Origin: Candidatus Gastranaerophilales bacterium
GTDB taxonomy: Bacteria > Cyanobacteriota > Vampirovibrionia > Gastranaerophilales > Gastranaerophilaceae
Direction: 5' to 3'
DNA: 64,000 bases
NCBI GenBank assembly: GCA_944322885.1
Contig: CALUQH010000005.1
Span: 1-64,000 of the forward strand
Position 1 is the first letter of the stretch, and every line of letters starts with the position of its first letter. Shown here one piece after another: positions 24,223 to 60,056 of this stretch. Position numbers and translations under genes: made by a program. Under the pieces are notes generated by a model. It ran no database searches. It was not told where the DNA came from and was given only the letters and a program-made list of their open reading frames with translations.

Positions 24223-24945
24223 TTATTTCCAAAAAGCGTTATCATACAAAGCCCTATTTGTACATGCTATACCATTTTTATTGTTAGAAGCTCCTTTTGA
24301 ACAATAAGTTTCCTCGTCATAATCAGTACCATCAGCCCCCATTGGCAAAAGTTTACCATTATCCATTAATTGAAATGTAAATGTATCCTCTCCCCATTTG
24401 TTGGGAAGCTTACGATAACCGTTTACATCAACCGTAACATAAACTTCACCATGAAAAGCACTCGAGTTTGTGTTTTCAAACAGTAACATCGAACCGTCAG
24501 TTAATATAAGCTGTCCATCATCAAAAAAATCTTCATTTGCGGTATTTCCTGAATAAGTTTTGTATGTAAATTTACCGTCAGCAGTATAAGTACCATTTTG
24601 TAAACATAATACATTGCCGCTTATCCCCTGCTGTGCGCCACAGTCAACCAGAATTTTTAAATATGGCTTAAGATAAGAATAAAATGCGGACTGCCTACGA
24701 GAACAATCAGATTTTGTGAGCGCTTCACCGTTATCCTCTTTGTATCTATCCAGAGCCTGCAGCAAAACAGAATACCCCTTATTTAGACCGCTCTGAAATT
24801 GTTTTTTCCTATAATTCGCAACCAGAGAAGGTATTGTCATAGCAGCAACAATACCGATAATACCAAGGGTAATTAACACCTCAGCTAACGTAAAACCGTA
24901 TCGGGAGCCTAGAATCGCCCCCCCCCCGAAATTTCGGGCAAACAT
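24223..24945 (-). CDS. Orphan type II/IV pseudopilin A (frame broken at a G10 tract)
   Basis: Type IV pilin-like protein with the prepilin cleavage motif G|FTLAEVLITLGIIGIVAAMTI, a helical spine, and the family C-terminal signature VDVNGYRKLPNKWGEDTFTF near residue 170. It would be processed by the PilD-type peptidase at 59061. The ATG at 24945 lacks a usable SD. The properly spaced SD (AAAGGAG) and promoter serve an ATG at 24965. That frame runs through ten G and stops at TAG; with eleven G it would enter the pilin frame exactly. As written the gene is probably off, or is expressed through slippage. The coordinates give the longest pilin-frame reading; the true start is probably 24965. Confidence 0.85.
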   Translation of the reverse strand: MFARNFGGGAILGSRYGFTLAEVLITLGIIGIVAAMTIPSLVANYRKKQFQSGLNKGYSVLLQALDRYKEDNGEALTKSDCSRRQSAFYSYLKPYLKILVDCGAQQGISGNVLCLQNGTYTADGKFTYKTYSGNTANEDFFDDGQLILTDGSMLLFENTNSSAFHGEVYVTVDVNGYRKLPNKWGEDTFTFQLMDNGKLLPMGADGTDYDEETYCSKGASNNKNGIACTNRALYDNAFWK

Positions 24946-24965
24946 AAATCTTCAAAATTTTTCAT
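24909..24965 (-). other. SD-led short ORF blocking pseudopilin A
   Basis: From ATG 24965 (SD AAAGGAG, six-base spacer) the frame reads MKNFEDLCLPEISGGGRF and stops at 24911-24909, just past the G10 run. One extra G fuses it to pseudopilin A with a leader of about 24 residues. It could instead act as a regulatory upstream ORF. Confidence 0.7.
24918..24927. repeat. C10/G10 homopolymer in the pseudopilin A leader
   Basis: Ten consecutive C on the plus strand (G in the gene sense) inside AT-rich DNA. It is flanked by AGAATCG and GAAATTTC; part of the right flank forms the 14-base palindrome CCCGAAATTTCGGG. It is a near-copy of the tract at 55311-55320. Confidence 0.95.
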
Positions 24966-25002
24966 TAAGTACTCCTTTACCGATTTAAATATTCTTTTTA
25001 TT

Positions 25003-28467: not shown

Positions 28468-29298
28468 TTAATAATTCATTTCCCAATTGTTATTTAATAT
28501 CTCGTCAAAACAGTATGATGCATCTCCTTGTCGACCTATACTTGTTGCAGATTGACACTTTTCAAGATTTGATTTCTGAACCTGAGGCTTAATATTAGGA
28601 GATACTAATTCTCCTTCAGTAATCGGATAACGACCTGCAACTAATTCGCCACCCACAACCGGATAACGCTCTAAATATTGGTTCAGACTTAAAAGAGGAC
28701 TTCTCAGAGCAGAAGAAATTGTTCCGTCAGAATATATTCCTGCTATAAACAAATCCCTGCCAACAGTATTTGGGCCCTTCTTCCCATTAACATCAATTAT
28801 CAAATCCCCAATTAAACCTTCTATATAATTAAGGTTCATTGCCTGAATGGGACGTGAACTACTAAAATATTTTAAGGATACATTATACTTTGCACAAATA
28901 GCAGCACCGCTTGAAAGAGCAAAACAAGAAGCCGTTGTATCTGCATAAGCCGTAACTGCACCGCCGCTAATATTTTTATAGCTGTCTGCCAAACAGTCTG
29001 ACGGAGTTCCTGTACAATCTTTTACAACATTAAACTGGCTTTGTATAAATGTCCTCATAGCATCATCACTACGAACACCAGCCTCCAATAAATTTATAGC
29101 ATTTCGTGAATTTATTTGAGATATTGCGGCCTGCTGAAATTCCGAATAAACTTTTTTTAATTGTGTTACATAAACTTTTCTTTGATGGTTAGAAACTAAC
29201 GTCGGCATTGTCACAGCAGCTACGACCCCGATTACACCAAGAGTTACCAATACCTCAGCGAGAGTAAATCCTGAACTTAACTTACTAAATTCCCCCAA
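28468..29298 (-). CDS. Orphan pseudopilin B (SD-led start out of frame)
   Basis: Pilin-like N-terminus SSG|FTLAEVLVTLGVIGVVAAVT, basic helix (HQRKVYVTQLKKVYSEFQQAA), a Cys-containing globular part and the family signature IDVNGKKGPNTVGRDLFIAG near residue 190. It ends in the family tail FDEILNNNWEMNY. The listed start is a TTG at 29298 without an SD. The real SD (GGAGG) and promoter serve ATG 29308, whose frame meets TAG after seven codons because of the GGGGG run at 29292-29296. Losing one G would give the leader MNIFGEFSKLSSG joined to the pilin. The gene is therefore off, recoded, or decayed as written. Confidence 0.82.
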   Translation of the reverse strand: MGEFSKLSSGFTLAEVLVTLGVIGVVAAVTMPTLVSNHQRKVYVTQLKKVYSEFQQAAISQINSRNAINLLEAGVRSDDAMRTFIQSQFNVVKDCTGTPSDCLADSYKNISGGAVTAYADTTASCFALSSGAAICAKYNVSLKYFSSSRPIQAMNLNYIEGLIGDLIIDVNGKKGPNTVGRDLFIAGIYSDGTISSALRSPLLSLNQYLERYPVVGGELVAGRYPITEGELVSPNIKPQVQKSNLEKCQSATSIGRQGDASYCFDEILNNNWEMNY

Positions 29299-29308
29299 AA
29301 ATATTCAT
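29285..29308 (-). other. SD-led short ORF overlapping pseudopilin B start
   Basis: ATG at 29308, four bases after GGAGG, reads MNIFGGI and stops. Another in-frame ATG lies at 29332 behind a second SD-like site. Both are in the wrong frame for the pilin by one base. Confidence 0.6.
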
Positions 29309-32198: not shown

Positions 32199-32931
32199 TT
32201 ACCAGGGATAATCGCCTTTTATTTCCCAACCGTCAGCCATAATCAGTGCAGCACACCACATCCCGCGTCCCTGCTTGTTACATTGATAAGCATACGCGCT
32301 GGGTCCGTCTCTAAATTCATCTCGAGCTCTAACAACATCAGTAGATTCACTATCATCATGAGAATGAGCTATTACTCCCTTTTCAGTAACAGAAAACATA
32401 AATAAATCTCTTCCGAATTTATTAGGCCTTTTAAAACCGTTTAAATCCACAGCAAAACCTTTTCTTTTAATTGAAGTAGCTGTAGAAGCTGTCTTAGACA
32501 GAAAAATTTGAGTACCTGAGGGTAAAGTTACAATATCAGCATTATCATACATCTGAATAAGAGATTTTTCTACTGATCCTGATGTTCCGTAATATATTAT
32601 TCCTTGTTGTCGCGCATTACCTACTGTTATACTAGATATTTCCATATAAGAAGATAAATATTTTTTAAAAAAGTCTGAACCGCTTATTGAATAATCCCAT
32701 AAAGAAGGATCCCCATATTCCAATTTAGCCATTTCTGCAGCTTGTGCTAACTCTGAATAAACTTTCTTTAACCGGGTAACTGTTTGTTTTTTTCTGGTAA
32801 TTTACAATTAATAAAGGTAAAGTCATTGCGGCAACAACGCCGATTATCCCCAGAGTAATTAATACTTCCGCAAGCGTAAATCCTTTAAAGGAGCCTAGAC
32901 CGAAGCTGTTGGATTTGATTTTATATTCCAT
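32199..32931 (-). pseudogene. Orphan pseudopilin C split by a frameshift at an A7 run
   Basis: The first frame (32931 to 32725) starts at an ATG with a good SD (AAAGGAG) and encodes KG|FTLAEVLITLGIIGVVAAMTL, then goes out of frame. The second frame (to 32199) carries the rest, including the signature VDLNGFKRPNKFGRDLFMF and the tail IMADGWEIKGDYPW. The break is at seven A (plus-strand T run 32787-32793). With six A the junction becomes NYQKKQTVTRLKKVYSELAQ, matching the intact pseudopilin E. Everything else is in order. It may be a recent pseudogene, a phase-off allele, or rescued by polymerase slippage on the A run. Confidence 0.85.
32787..32793. repeat. A7/T7 run at the pseudopilin C frameshift
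   Basis: Seven T on the plus strand (A in the gene sense) at exactly the place where the two pseudopilin reading frames must join. One base fewer restores the frame. Confidence 0.85.
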
Positions 32932-55221: not shown

Positions 55222-55250
55222 TTGACTTTTAATAAAAAATCGTAAATAAT
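55222..55250 (+). promoter_or_regulatory. Promoter of pseudopilin F unit
   Basis: TTGACT (55222-55227), 17-base spacer, AATAAT (55245-55250). The leader carries a perfect SD (AGGAGG, 55274-55279) for the ATG at 55286. This shows that the upstream ORF containing the C10 tract, not the pilin-frame ATG, is the designed start. Confidence 0.65.
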
Positions 55251-55285
55251 AAAAACATAAATTTTTTAAATTTAGGAGGAAAACA

Positions 55286-55336
55286 ATGATATTAAGAGAG
55301 CTGAGAATTGCCCCCCCCCCGAAAATTCAAGTATAG
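55286..55336 (+). other. SD-led short ORF blocking pseudopilin F
   Basis: From ATG 55286 the frame reads MILRELRIAPPPKIQV and stops at TAG 55334-55336, just past the C10 tract. With eleven C it stays open for 36 codons and joins the pseudopilin F frame at 55393 without a stop. Confidence 0.7.
55311..55320. repeat. C10 homopolymer upstream of pseudopilin F
   Basis: Ten C on the plus strand flanked by AGAATTG and GAAAATTC, near-identical to the flanks of the tract at 24918-24927, and also in a pseudopilin leader. Only these two runs of eight or more G/C were noticed in the window. Confidence 0.95.
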
Positions 55337-55392
55337 CAAGAGATTTAGTCAAACATATTTACTTAAAAAAAAATGTATGCAATAATAGTGAT

Positions 55393-56151
55393 ATGATACA
55401 TCATATAAATAAACCTGGTTTTACTCTTGCGGAAGTTTTAATTACCTTAGGTATTATCGGAGTCGTTGCAGCAATGACTATGCCGGCATTGATTACCAAT
55501 CATAAATATATGGTTCTGCAAAATCAATTTAAAGCAGCATATTCTGATTTAAATCAGGCCGCTAAACTTTTTCAGGTACATAATGACATGTACGTAGGTG
55601 AATATGCCGCAAGCTATACTTCGAAAGATGCTTTAAATGAATTTTCGAAAGAATTTAAAACAGTTTTAAAAACTTCTAATCTAATGTACGATTCTACTGA
55701 TGACGAGGGTACCAGTATTGGTGCAAGACCATGGCATTGGAGATCAATAAGTGGAAGCACTTCCGGCGGCACAGTATCAGCTTGTGATGTAAGCGGTTTT
55801 TTCTGGGATCCTCAAGGTCGGGTAATATCATTTGACGATCCTCCACTTTCAGGAGACAACGGGCCTAAAATTTGTATTGATATAAACGGAGAAAAAGCAC
55901 CTAATCGATACGGGGCAGATTTTTTTATCTTTATGTTTACAACAGACGGATATGTTATTCCATGGGGACAGGAGCACAAAGATAATCCAGAAAAGACCAG
56001 CGGGAATGGGAACTATACCGTTTCAAAAACAATATGCAAATATACTTCATCCATAACTGATCAGCTGGCCTGTTCAAACTATGCTCTTATTAACCGGCAC
56101 CCGACAGATTCAGGTAAAGATTACTGGCATGATTTTGTCAGAGGAAGATAA
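55393..56151 (+). CDS. Orphan pseudopilin F (C10 tract upstream keeps it out of frame)
   Basis: Prepilin motif KPG|FTLAEVLITLGIIGVVAAMTM, helix with QNQFKAAYSDLNQAAKLF, signature IDINGEKAPNRYGADFFIF near residue 165, and a Cys-containing C-terminus. The ATG at 55393 gives a typical nine-residue leader but has no SD. A weak -35/-10 (TTTACT-17-AATAAT) six bases upstream could make a leaderless message from it. The stronger promoter and SD belong to the ATG at 55286, which is one base out of frame because of the C10 tract. Expression may therefore switch with tract length. It converges on pyrG with nine bases between. Confidence 0.83.
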   Translation: MIHHINKPGFTLAEVLITLGIIGVVAAMTMPALITNHKYMVLQNQFKAAYSDLNQAAKLFQVHNDMYVGEYAASYTSKDALNEFSKEFKTVLKTSNLMYDSTDDEGTSIGARPWHWRSISGSTSGGTVSACDVSGFFWDPQGRVISFDDPPLSGDNGPKICIDINGEKAPNRYGADFFIFMFTTDGYVIPWGQEHKDNPEKTSGNGNYTVSKTICKYTSSITDQLACSNYALINRHPTDSGKDYWHDFVRGR

Positions 56152-59060: not shown

Positions 59061-60056
59061 ATGGGAGCATTAATCGCAATATTAGCCCTCGTATTTATAA
59101 CGGGATTATGTATTGGAAGTTTTTTAAACGTAGTAATTTTGAGGACTCTGAGCGAAGAATCCATTGTATTTCCGGCTTCCAAATGTCCTAAATGCCAGAC
59201 ACCTCTAAAATGGTGGCATAATATTCCGGTGCTTTCATATATCTTTTTAAGAGGGAAATGTGCTTTTTGCAAAGAGCATATAAGCATTCAGTACCCGATT
59301 GTAGAACTTTTTACAGGTATAATATTTGTCCTGTTATTTTTAAAATTCGGAATAAGTTTTCAAACTTTATTTGTATGGATAATTGCATCGCTTTTTATTG
59401 TGATTTCAGGGACGGATATAAAAGAAAAAGTTGTCTATGACCTTCACACATATATACTTGTCGGACTTGGTCTGCTTTATGCTGTTGTAGTAACAATAAT
59501 TGCAGTAACACAAATGCATTATGCAGGAACTCCTCTTGAATTTACCAAATATGTTTTATTAAATAATCCGATAACAAATTCACTGCTCGGTATTATTGCA
59601 GGTGTGCTTATTCTTGAAATATGCGCCCGTGCAGGGTATCTTGTTGCCGGAACAAGAGCTTTCGGAGAAGGCGACACATTTATCGCAGCCGGTCTGGGTG
59701 CAATATTCGGGTGGAAAACATTAATTATTATTTTAGGCTTAGGGGTTCTAATTCAGGTTGTAATCTTTCTTCCGATATTTATTAAAGGACTCGTAAAAAG
59801 TAAAGACTGGAAAACACTGGCATCATTTACAGTCTTTGTATTGTTTGCAATAACATTCTTTACATTACAACACTACAGAGTAATAACTCCTGATACAATG
59901 GTTATTTATGCAATTTGTTCATTTGTTCTTGCTATACTCGGTATTGCTTCCTGCATATTTATATTTAAAGGGCTAAGAGAGCATCCGGAAAACAGGACAT
60001 ATATGCCGTTCGGGCCGGCAATGGTTGCAGCTGCTTTTATTGCACTGCTTATATAA
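59061..60056 (+). CDS. pilD: Type IV prepilin leader peptidase / N-methyltransferase
   Basis: Membrane aspartyl protease that cleaves prepilins before the conserved Phe/Met and methylates the new N-terminus; it should process the pseudopilins in this window. GSFLNVVILR near residue 15, the zinc group CPKCQTPL ... CAFCKEHI (about 40-75), and the two catalytic Asp in ISGTDIKEKVVYD (about 117) and GEGDTFIAAGLGA (about 205). About eight helices are present. The length of 331 is longer than usual because of C-terminal helices. A strong SD (GAGGAG) precedes the ATG. It is in an operon with the sigma factor. Confidence 0.95.
   Translation: MGALIAILALVFITGLCIGSFLNVVILRTLSEESIVFPASKCPKCQTPLKWWHNIPVLSYIFLRGKCAFCKEHISIQYPIVELFTGIIFVLLFLKFGISFQTLFVWIIASLFIVISGTDIKEKVVYDLHTYILVGLGLLYAVVVTIIAVTQMHYAGTPLEFTKYVLLNNPITNSLLGIIAGVLILEICARAGYLVAGTRAFGEGDTFIAAGLGAIFGWKTLIIILGLGVLIQVVIFLPIFIKGLVKSKDWKTLASFTVFVLFAITFFTLQHYRVITPDTMVIYAICSFVLAILGIASCIFIFKGLREHPENRTYMPFGPAMVAAAFIALLI

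Follow-up and report, generated by a model that had tools for sequence, protein, structure and literature searches.

The pseudopilin F locus

The window, which is the whole 64-kb stretch of DNA analyzed here, carries several pilin genes, and in two of them, pseudopilins F and A, a run of ten C or ten G lies between a start codon preceded by a Shine-Dalgarno (SD) sequence and the pilin frame. The features are as follows, with both F promoters predicted by consensus match.

55222..55250, + strand: promoter P1, TTGACT-17-AATAAT, matching 10 of 12 consensus positions
55274..55279, + strand: SD sequence AGGAGG, 6 nt 5' of ATG 55286; the SD-ATG-tract layout is found at about 50 loci
55286..55336, + strand: out-of-frame leader ORF of F, 16 aa, from ATG 55286 to TAG 55334-55336
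55311..55320, + strand: C10 tract of F; 11 C would join the leader to the pilin frame
55358..55386, + strand: possible second promoter P2, TTTACT-17-AATAAT, with TG before the -10 box
55393..55395, + strand: internal ATG without an SD sequence, possible leaderless start of a short prepilin, MIHHINKPG/FTLAEV
55393..56151, + strand: pseudopilin F body, 252 aa, with the prepilin N-methylation motif (Pfam PF07963; TIGR02532 above cut-off)
59061..60056, + strand: prepilin peptidase (Pfam PF06750 and PF01478)
24963..24977, - strand: SD sequence AAGGAG (24977-24972) and ATG (24965-24963) of pilin A; the out-of-frame ORF ends at TAG 24911-24909
24918..24927, - strand: G10 tract (coding strand) of pilin A, predicted to be on at 11
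24223..24945, - strand: pseudopilin A as called from the in-frame internal ATG 24945 (PF07963)
28468..29308, - strand: pilin with a short T5G5 run after SD-ATG 29308; the SD-ATG frame is off by one base and needs -1
32199..32931, - strand: pilin with the tract flanks (AGCTTCGG-TCTAGGCTCC) still present in its leader and a G-run of only GG, in frame by its sequence

All elements that the initial annotation had assigned to F were recovered where it placed them: TTGACT-17-AATAAT (TTGACT at 55222-55227, a 17-nt spacer, and AATAAT at 55245-55250), AGGAGG, the ATG at 55286, C10 at 55311-55320, and the TAG at 55334. At C10, the tract is one base out of frame with the pilin. Translation with 11 C gave 36 codons up to the ATG at 55393 and then an open frame to the pilin end (MILRELRIAPPPENSS...NNSDMIHHINKPG/FTLAEV), confirming the claim that an eleventh C opens the leader into the pilin. 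Both F and A have the GFTLxE methylation/cleavage motif and the hydrophobic segment of type IV prepilins or pseudopilins (PF07963, TIGR02532 above cut-off), and all equivalog models for a named pilin type (GspG, ComGC, PilA) scored below cut-off for the two proteins. The prepilin peptidase, the processing enzyme that such pilins need, is encoded 3 kb from F. A tRNA scan of the window returned no tRNA genes.

The two C10 runs of the window (six overlapping hits of C8 or longer) compare with 0.16 runs of C8 or longer expected, and were matched in 0 of 100 shuffles. From its SD-preceded ATG at 24965, pilin A needs 11 G to be joined, while its internal ATG at 24945 lacks an SD sequence and is already in the pilin frame. 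A and F had been described as having the same tract, length, and deficit; the length and the deficit do agree, but the coding strand reads G10 in A and C10 in F. The common element is therefore the DNA tract, with C on the lagging strand, and not the leader peptide. Elsewhere in the window, a frameshift farther along the gene, close to an A7 run, disrupts the body of the pilin at 32199..32931.

Tract length and reading frame across the genus

The genome to which the window belongs (1.86 Mb in 40 contigs) has 66 tracts of C9 or longer. Its 70 runs of eight or more, taken from a survey of the stretches around tracts, include 58 that are exactly 10 long and 57 that are linked to pilins, with glycosyltransferases among the others, a concentration in surface genes. 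Most lie about 20 to 40 nt 3' of an SD-preceded ATG and 5' of a prepilin ORF, in keeping with the description of a contingency locus as a G/C homopolymer of about eight bases or more in the coding region near the 5' end. The genes may point either way, so that the coding strand reads C10 in some and G10 in others, and about 50 pilin genes of this genome carry a ten-base run with the same deficit as F. The view of A and F as an isolated, independent pair is ruled out by this genome-wide set, of which both are part. The argument for a shared switch that had been built on the pair is strengthened by the same result: because the tract and its deficit recur in about 50 pilin genes and throughout the genus, a shared kind of switch is much more likely.

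In 24 genomes of the genus we counted 1 to 150 runs each, with dozens in most, compared with 0 to 6 in other genera of the order. Run number correlated with pilin family size (Spearman 0.64; 0.82 without the outlier G022), where pilins were counted among the matches listed and the largest families therefore stand at 82 or more. The outlier, with at least 82 pilin matches yet only four long C-runs, offers a natural comparison as a pilin family that is large but ungated. Of the records that carry the motif, those with a name were nearly all Candidatus Gastranaerophilales or Melainabacteria gut assemblies, a search of IMG/VR for the motif gave only three chance-like matches, and in the literature searched we found no paper on phase variation in Gastranaerophilales. 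The F tract is one case of a genus-wide feature of uncultured Ca. Gastranaerophilales gut genomes.

A mobile element, considered for a 26-nt motif present in both orientations, was weakened as a candidate by flanks that are loosely conserved beyond G-C10-GA. In the leaders of L033, L036, L056, L063, L076, L105, and others, the stretch from run to pilin is often dispersed repeat sequence (ARGQAVISEQSSRKNMFLPLIGKVRMGFNQSNNRRLLPTLSPSLI-like), which stays open in the joined frame. This genome (L061:6559-7368) and another species of the genus (L227) share a C10-bearing glycosyltransferase locus at 99.9% identity, which indicates a recent transfer.

To each run we assigned the best upstream SD-ATG and a downstream prepilin motif, and computed the run length that joins the two. 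Among all pilin-linked runs, 162 of 183 are 10 long, and of these 151 need one base more, nine are in frame, and two need one base less, class counts that could move by a few since the SD and motif picks were automatic. The same picture emerged from a sample not chosen by tract length, which omits records retrieved by a ten-C search pattern: here 137 of 158 pilin-linked tracts are exactly 10 long, 129 of them needing +1, six in frame, and two needing -1. Against an expectation of one third, 129 of 137 corresponds to a binomial p of about 3e-51, a value that ignores shared descent; when the tracts were grouped by downstream leader cluster, 59 of the 62 clusters needed +1, two were in frame, and one needed -1. 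The distance from start to run takes all three phases, in C-type and G-type genes alike, with matching compensation on the 3' side. Coding base (C or G) and tract phase give six combinations, every one of which is represented and follows the +1 rule. No stop interrupts the joined frame between tract and pilin at 151 of 152 loci of any length (median 25 codons), while the frame read at 10 meets a stop at a median of 3 codons past the tract (range 2-5 codons), so one base separates an early stop at 10 from a frame open to the pilin end at 11.

Between the run and the pilin there is no ATG at 111 of 151 loci by tally (110 by a stricter reading), and at about 80 of the 151 there is no ATG, GTG, or TTG. 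A leaderless start is therefore not the family's escape from the off state. For F itself, a weaker leaderless promoter had been proposed at 55393, and the site is indeed present: P2, with its TG before the -10 box, ends 7 nt 5' of the ATG, and a related box (AATAGTGATATGATACATCA or TATAATAGTGAT) lies 5' of the pilin in about 17 homologues, one of which, the syntenic homologue of F at L088, has TTGACA-17-CATAAT in this place. The TATAATAGTGAT-type box is found at about 25 of the 151 loci, a minority at which a leaderless start is plausible as well. The P2 site and the related boxes make a tract-independent start of F possible and a nearly leaderless start at 55393 plausible, in which case the off state of F may be incomplete. 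P2 is a weaker match than P1, however, with only 9 of 12 positions, and shuffled versions of the region yield 2.1 such matches. A stronger version of this idea, in which the pilin is made from P2 as a (nearly) leaderless message and the P1-tract part is an accessory or a relic, so that the F tract matters little, strikes us as improbable: the +1 frame is still kept open across the P2 stretch, and most of the family lacks an ATG to use in this way.

Among non-pilin genes with the tract inside the reading frame, after foreign records and pilin variants missed by the motif had been set aside, ten are in frame at 10 and three need +1; some of the non-pilin tract genes are glycosyltransferases, and some have a polysaccharide pyruvyltransferase domain. 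Ten is therefore not a universal off length, since at this length the pilins would be off and these ten genes on.

Tract length ranges from 8 to 13 between species and paralogues and is 10 in about 87%. In-frame variants include C11 at L032, L056:5140, and L069:9529 and G8 at L052:5838 and L072:5562, and other in-frame alleles arise through a gained flank base. Homologous loci differ by one or two bases in the run, as in L047 (C9) and L143 (C10), which are 89% identical. At F, no length variation was seen among the syntenic homologues in two other species, both C10; consensus assemblies show the major allele only. Nor did contig ends, checked for tract-length bubbles, contain a pair of alternative lengths.

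We also asked whether the true length might be 11 and the reported 10 an error of assembly, the pilins being simply on. G-runs are hard to sequence and annotated lengths can err (PMC9187656), and several contigs end at or right beside a tract. Yet the same assemblies give 8, 9, 11, 12, and 13, Illumina controls on C11/G11 oligonucleotides returned mostly the correct length (about 94% for C11; PMC9187656), the pattern recurs across genomes of different studies, and a true 11 would put the ten non-pilin genes wrongly out of frame. We give this reading very little credence.

Two observations concern contig ends at the runs. In G004, G014, and G015, several contigs begin in the run or a few bases before it, on the pilin side (L238-L240, L243, L244, L247, L248), which suggests that reads fail or branch at the G-run. 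In G022, contigs C71 and C72 (L236 and L237, positions 1-86) are identical around C10 and then diverge upstream of the start codon, consistent with either a single leader with two upstream regions or two strains.

The pilin bodies that are out of frame at 10 are under purifying selection, with dN/dS of 0.07-0.19 in the closest pairs (median 0.18), including 0.13 in a pair with dS 0.21 and 0.12 in a pair with dS 0.62. For F against its homologues, dN/dS was 0.07-0.12 with dS near saturation.

Orientation of the tracts relative to replication

The strand rule was derived from GC skew, a stand-in for mapped origins. Over stretches of at least 15 kb, 98 of 106 runs had their C on the strand of negative skew. 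With an absolute skew of 0.015 or above, this held for 88 of 88 tracts, which places the G-run on the leading strand. In the genome of F, 40 of 42 neighboring runs agree in orientation. G007, the best assembled relative searched, has long one-orientation blocks of runs that flip only where GC skew flips, and 2 of 72 neighboring pairs differ. Since the G-run is on the leading strand, the coding base (C or G) is set by gene direction. The nearest homologue of F, in G017, is 81% identical, not syntenic, and on the opposite strand relative to replication; it has G10 where F has C10, with an identical deficit. Immediately 3' of the G-run, about 93-98% of the runs have a C. One rare run opposite in orientation to its neighbor, at L072:5562, is 8 long and in frame.

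As a control genome we used Helicobacter equorum, which has a similar number of poly-C/G tracts in a genome of similar size (76 tracts of C8/G8 or longer in 1.7 Mb). In contrast to the two genomes above, 10 of its 44 neighboring pairs differ in orientation (34 of 44 agree), and the base flanking the tract is mixed. The short-range flips and the mixed flank indicate that the strand rule is not general for such tracts. In the part of PMC12344412 drawn on here, which cites Cherry 2023, leading-strand G-runs are the mutable orientation at the GnT hotspot, and the effect is substitution. The tracts resemble this hotspot in having the G-run on the leading strand, and it could explain the origin of leading-strand G-runs; they differ from the hotspot as described in that part in that the 3' base is C instead of T and a length step is proposed in place of a substitution.

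The orientation rule bears on a reading in which C10/G10 is a fixed slippery recoding site. The ribosome would slip -1, or RNA polymerase would add one base, with the DNA unchanged; a set share of translation would enter the pilin frame, and ten would be the working length. This would account for the uniform length and +1 need (129 of 137 loci in many species), for flanks that vary on both sides yet compensate to keep the phase, for the strong purifying selection seen in genes whose consensus is out of frame, and for the 110 loci without another ATG. The +1 need equals a -1 shift, so the shift direction is conserved as in a programmed -1 frameshift. A stimulatory RNA structure 3' of the tract was not found, the mean fold z being close to 0 (-0.16 for C-type and +0.08 for G-type genes), although such a structure is not needed at every known frameshift site. 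C-run and G-run mRNAs would also have to slip alike, neither translation nor transcription gives a reason for the coding base to follow the replication strand, non-pilin genes carry the same tract in frame at 10, and intact pilins occur at loci of 8, 9, 11, and 12. A survey of transcript slippage covers A and T runs, in the portion relevant here (PMC1088944). We regard recoding as unlikely. Slightly less likely again is its extension to a genus-wide code, by which every gated pilin would pass C10/G10 through the same one-base shift during expression, the repertoire would be dosed jointly by frameshift efficiency, and the replication strand would pick the base only to hold the run at ten.

Probable replication slippage and related switches

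A G-run on the leading strand whatever the gene direction places the process at replication, not at the ribosome. We hypothesize that the tract is a contingency (simple-sequence-repeat) switch that works by DNA replication slippage, with the pilins off by default, and consider this the probable explanation. What the sequences show directly is the layout, the lengths and phases, the strand rule, and purifying selection acting on the pilins. Ten C (or G) would be the common, stable length, at which the stop 2-5 codons past the tract keeps the pilin off; slippage in the living population, by adding one base (11) or removing two (8), would give a fused prepilin with a long leader, which the prepilin peptidase would cut ahead of F-T-L-A-E. 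Because about 50 pilin genes per genome share the default-off setting, we infer a population that is mostly off for each pilin, in which single cells draw one or a few random pilins, a lottery-like outcome.

Several findings count against slippage, namely that F and its syntenic homologues in two species are all C10, that length 10 is uniform and the phase far from random, and that MutS is present in the genome; MutS usually damps slippage. A one-directional recoding event would also yield the one-sided +1 need directly, whereas slippage requires the added argument of a slip bias. If that bias is as in Bifidobacterium breve, loss of a base would be the commoner slip, and a requirement for gain would keep the pilin tightly off because the commoner loss, to 9, would be off as well.

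The best explanation likens these tracts to the sortase-pilus G-tracts of B. breve, spread here over a family of about 75 genes. In B. breve UCC2003, the loci bbr_0113 and bbr_1889 have a short ORF, G10/G11, and an out-of-frame pilin, with a 24-nt ORF ahead of the tract in one of the two operons; slippage was measured in DNA, where the G10 locus was 93.4% G10, 6.5% G9, and 0.1% G11, and on-lengths were enriched in mice (PMC9187656). Both cases involve a gut commensal with a short ORF, then a run, then an out-of-frame pilin that is off at the annotated length. B. breve has two such loci per genome and sortase pilins, whereas here there are about 50, the pilins are type IV-type prepilins, the coding strand may read either C or G, the replication-strand rule is strict, and slippage is predicted from sequence.

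The phasome of Campylobacter is alike in its many G/C homopolymers in surface genes, its AT-rich genome, and its use of frame as an on/off state. Its phase-variable poly-G/C tracts are spread in length (53% at length 9 and 26% at length 10), with an ON share near neutral drift in a large set (PMC6321876), whereas here about 87% of tracts are 10 long, and of the pilin tracts about 8% are in frame and almost all the rest need +1. Neisseria, in the portion of PMC3547852 used here, shares a large pilin repertoire and guanine-rich DNA near the pilin gene (the G4 of pilE, with silent pilin copies), but there one expressed locus is rewritten by gene conversion, while here every gene is equipped with a start and a tract of its own.

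If slippage is the mechanism, these uncultured relatives of cyanobacteria in the gut possess a surface repertoire that is very large and off by default, in which about 50 type IV-type pilins each stand behind an identical ten-base gate and are under selection though out of frame at the consensus. It could then be tested whether a given cell expresses a single, randomly chosen pilin at any moment, whether alleles of 11 bases become enriched on passage through a host, as on-lengths do in B. breve, and why the runs have G only on the leading strand. Automated gene calling will leave these pilins with truncated or missing starts in all such genomes. For most of a large surface-protein repertoire, off thus appears to be the default state, with the genes switchable one by one.
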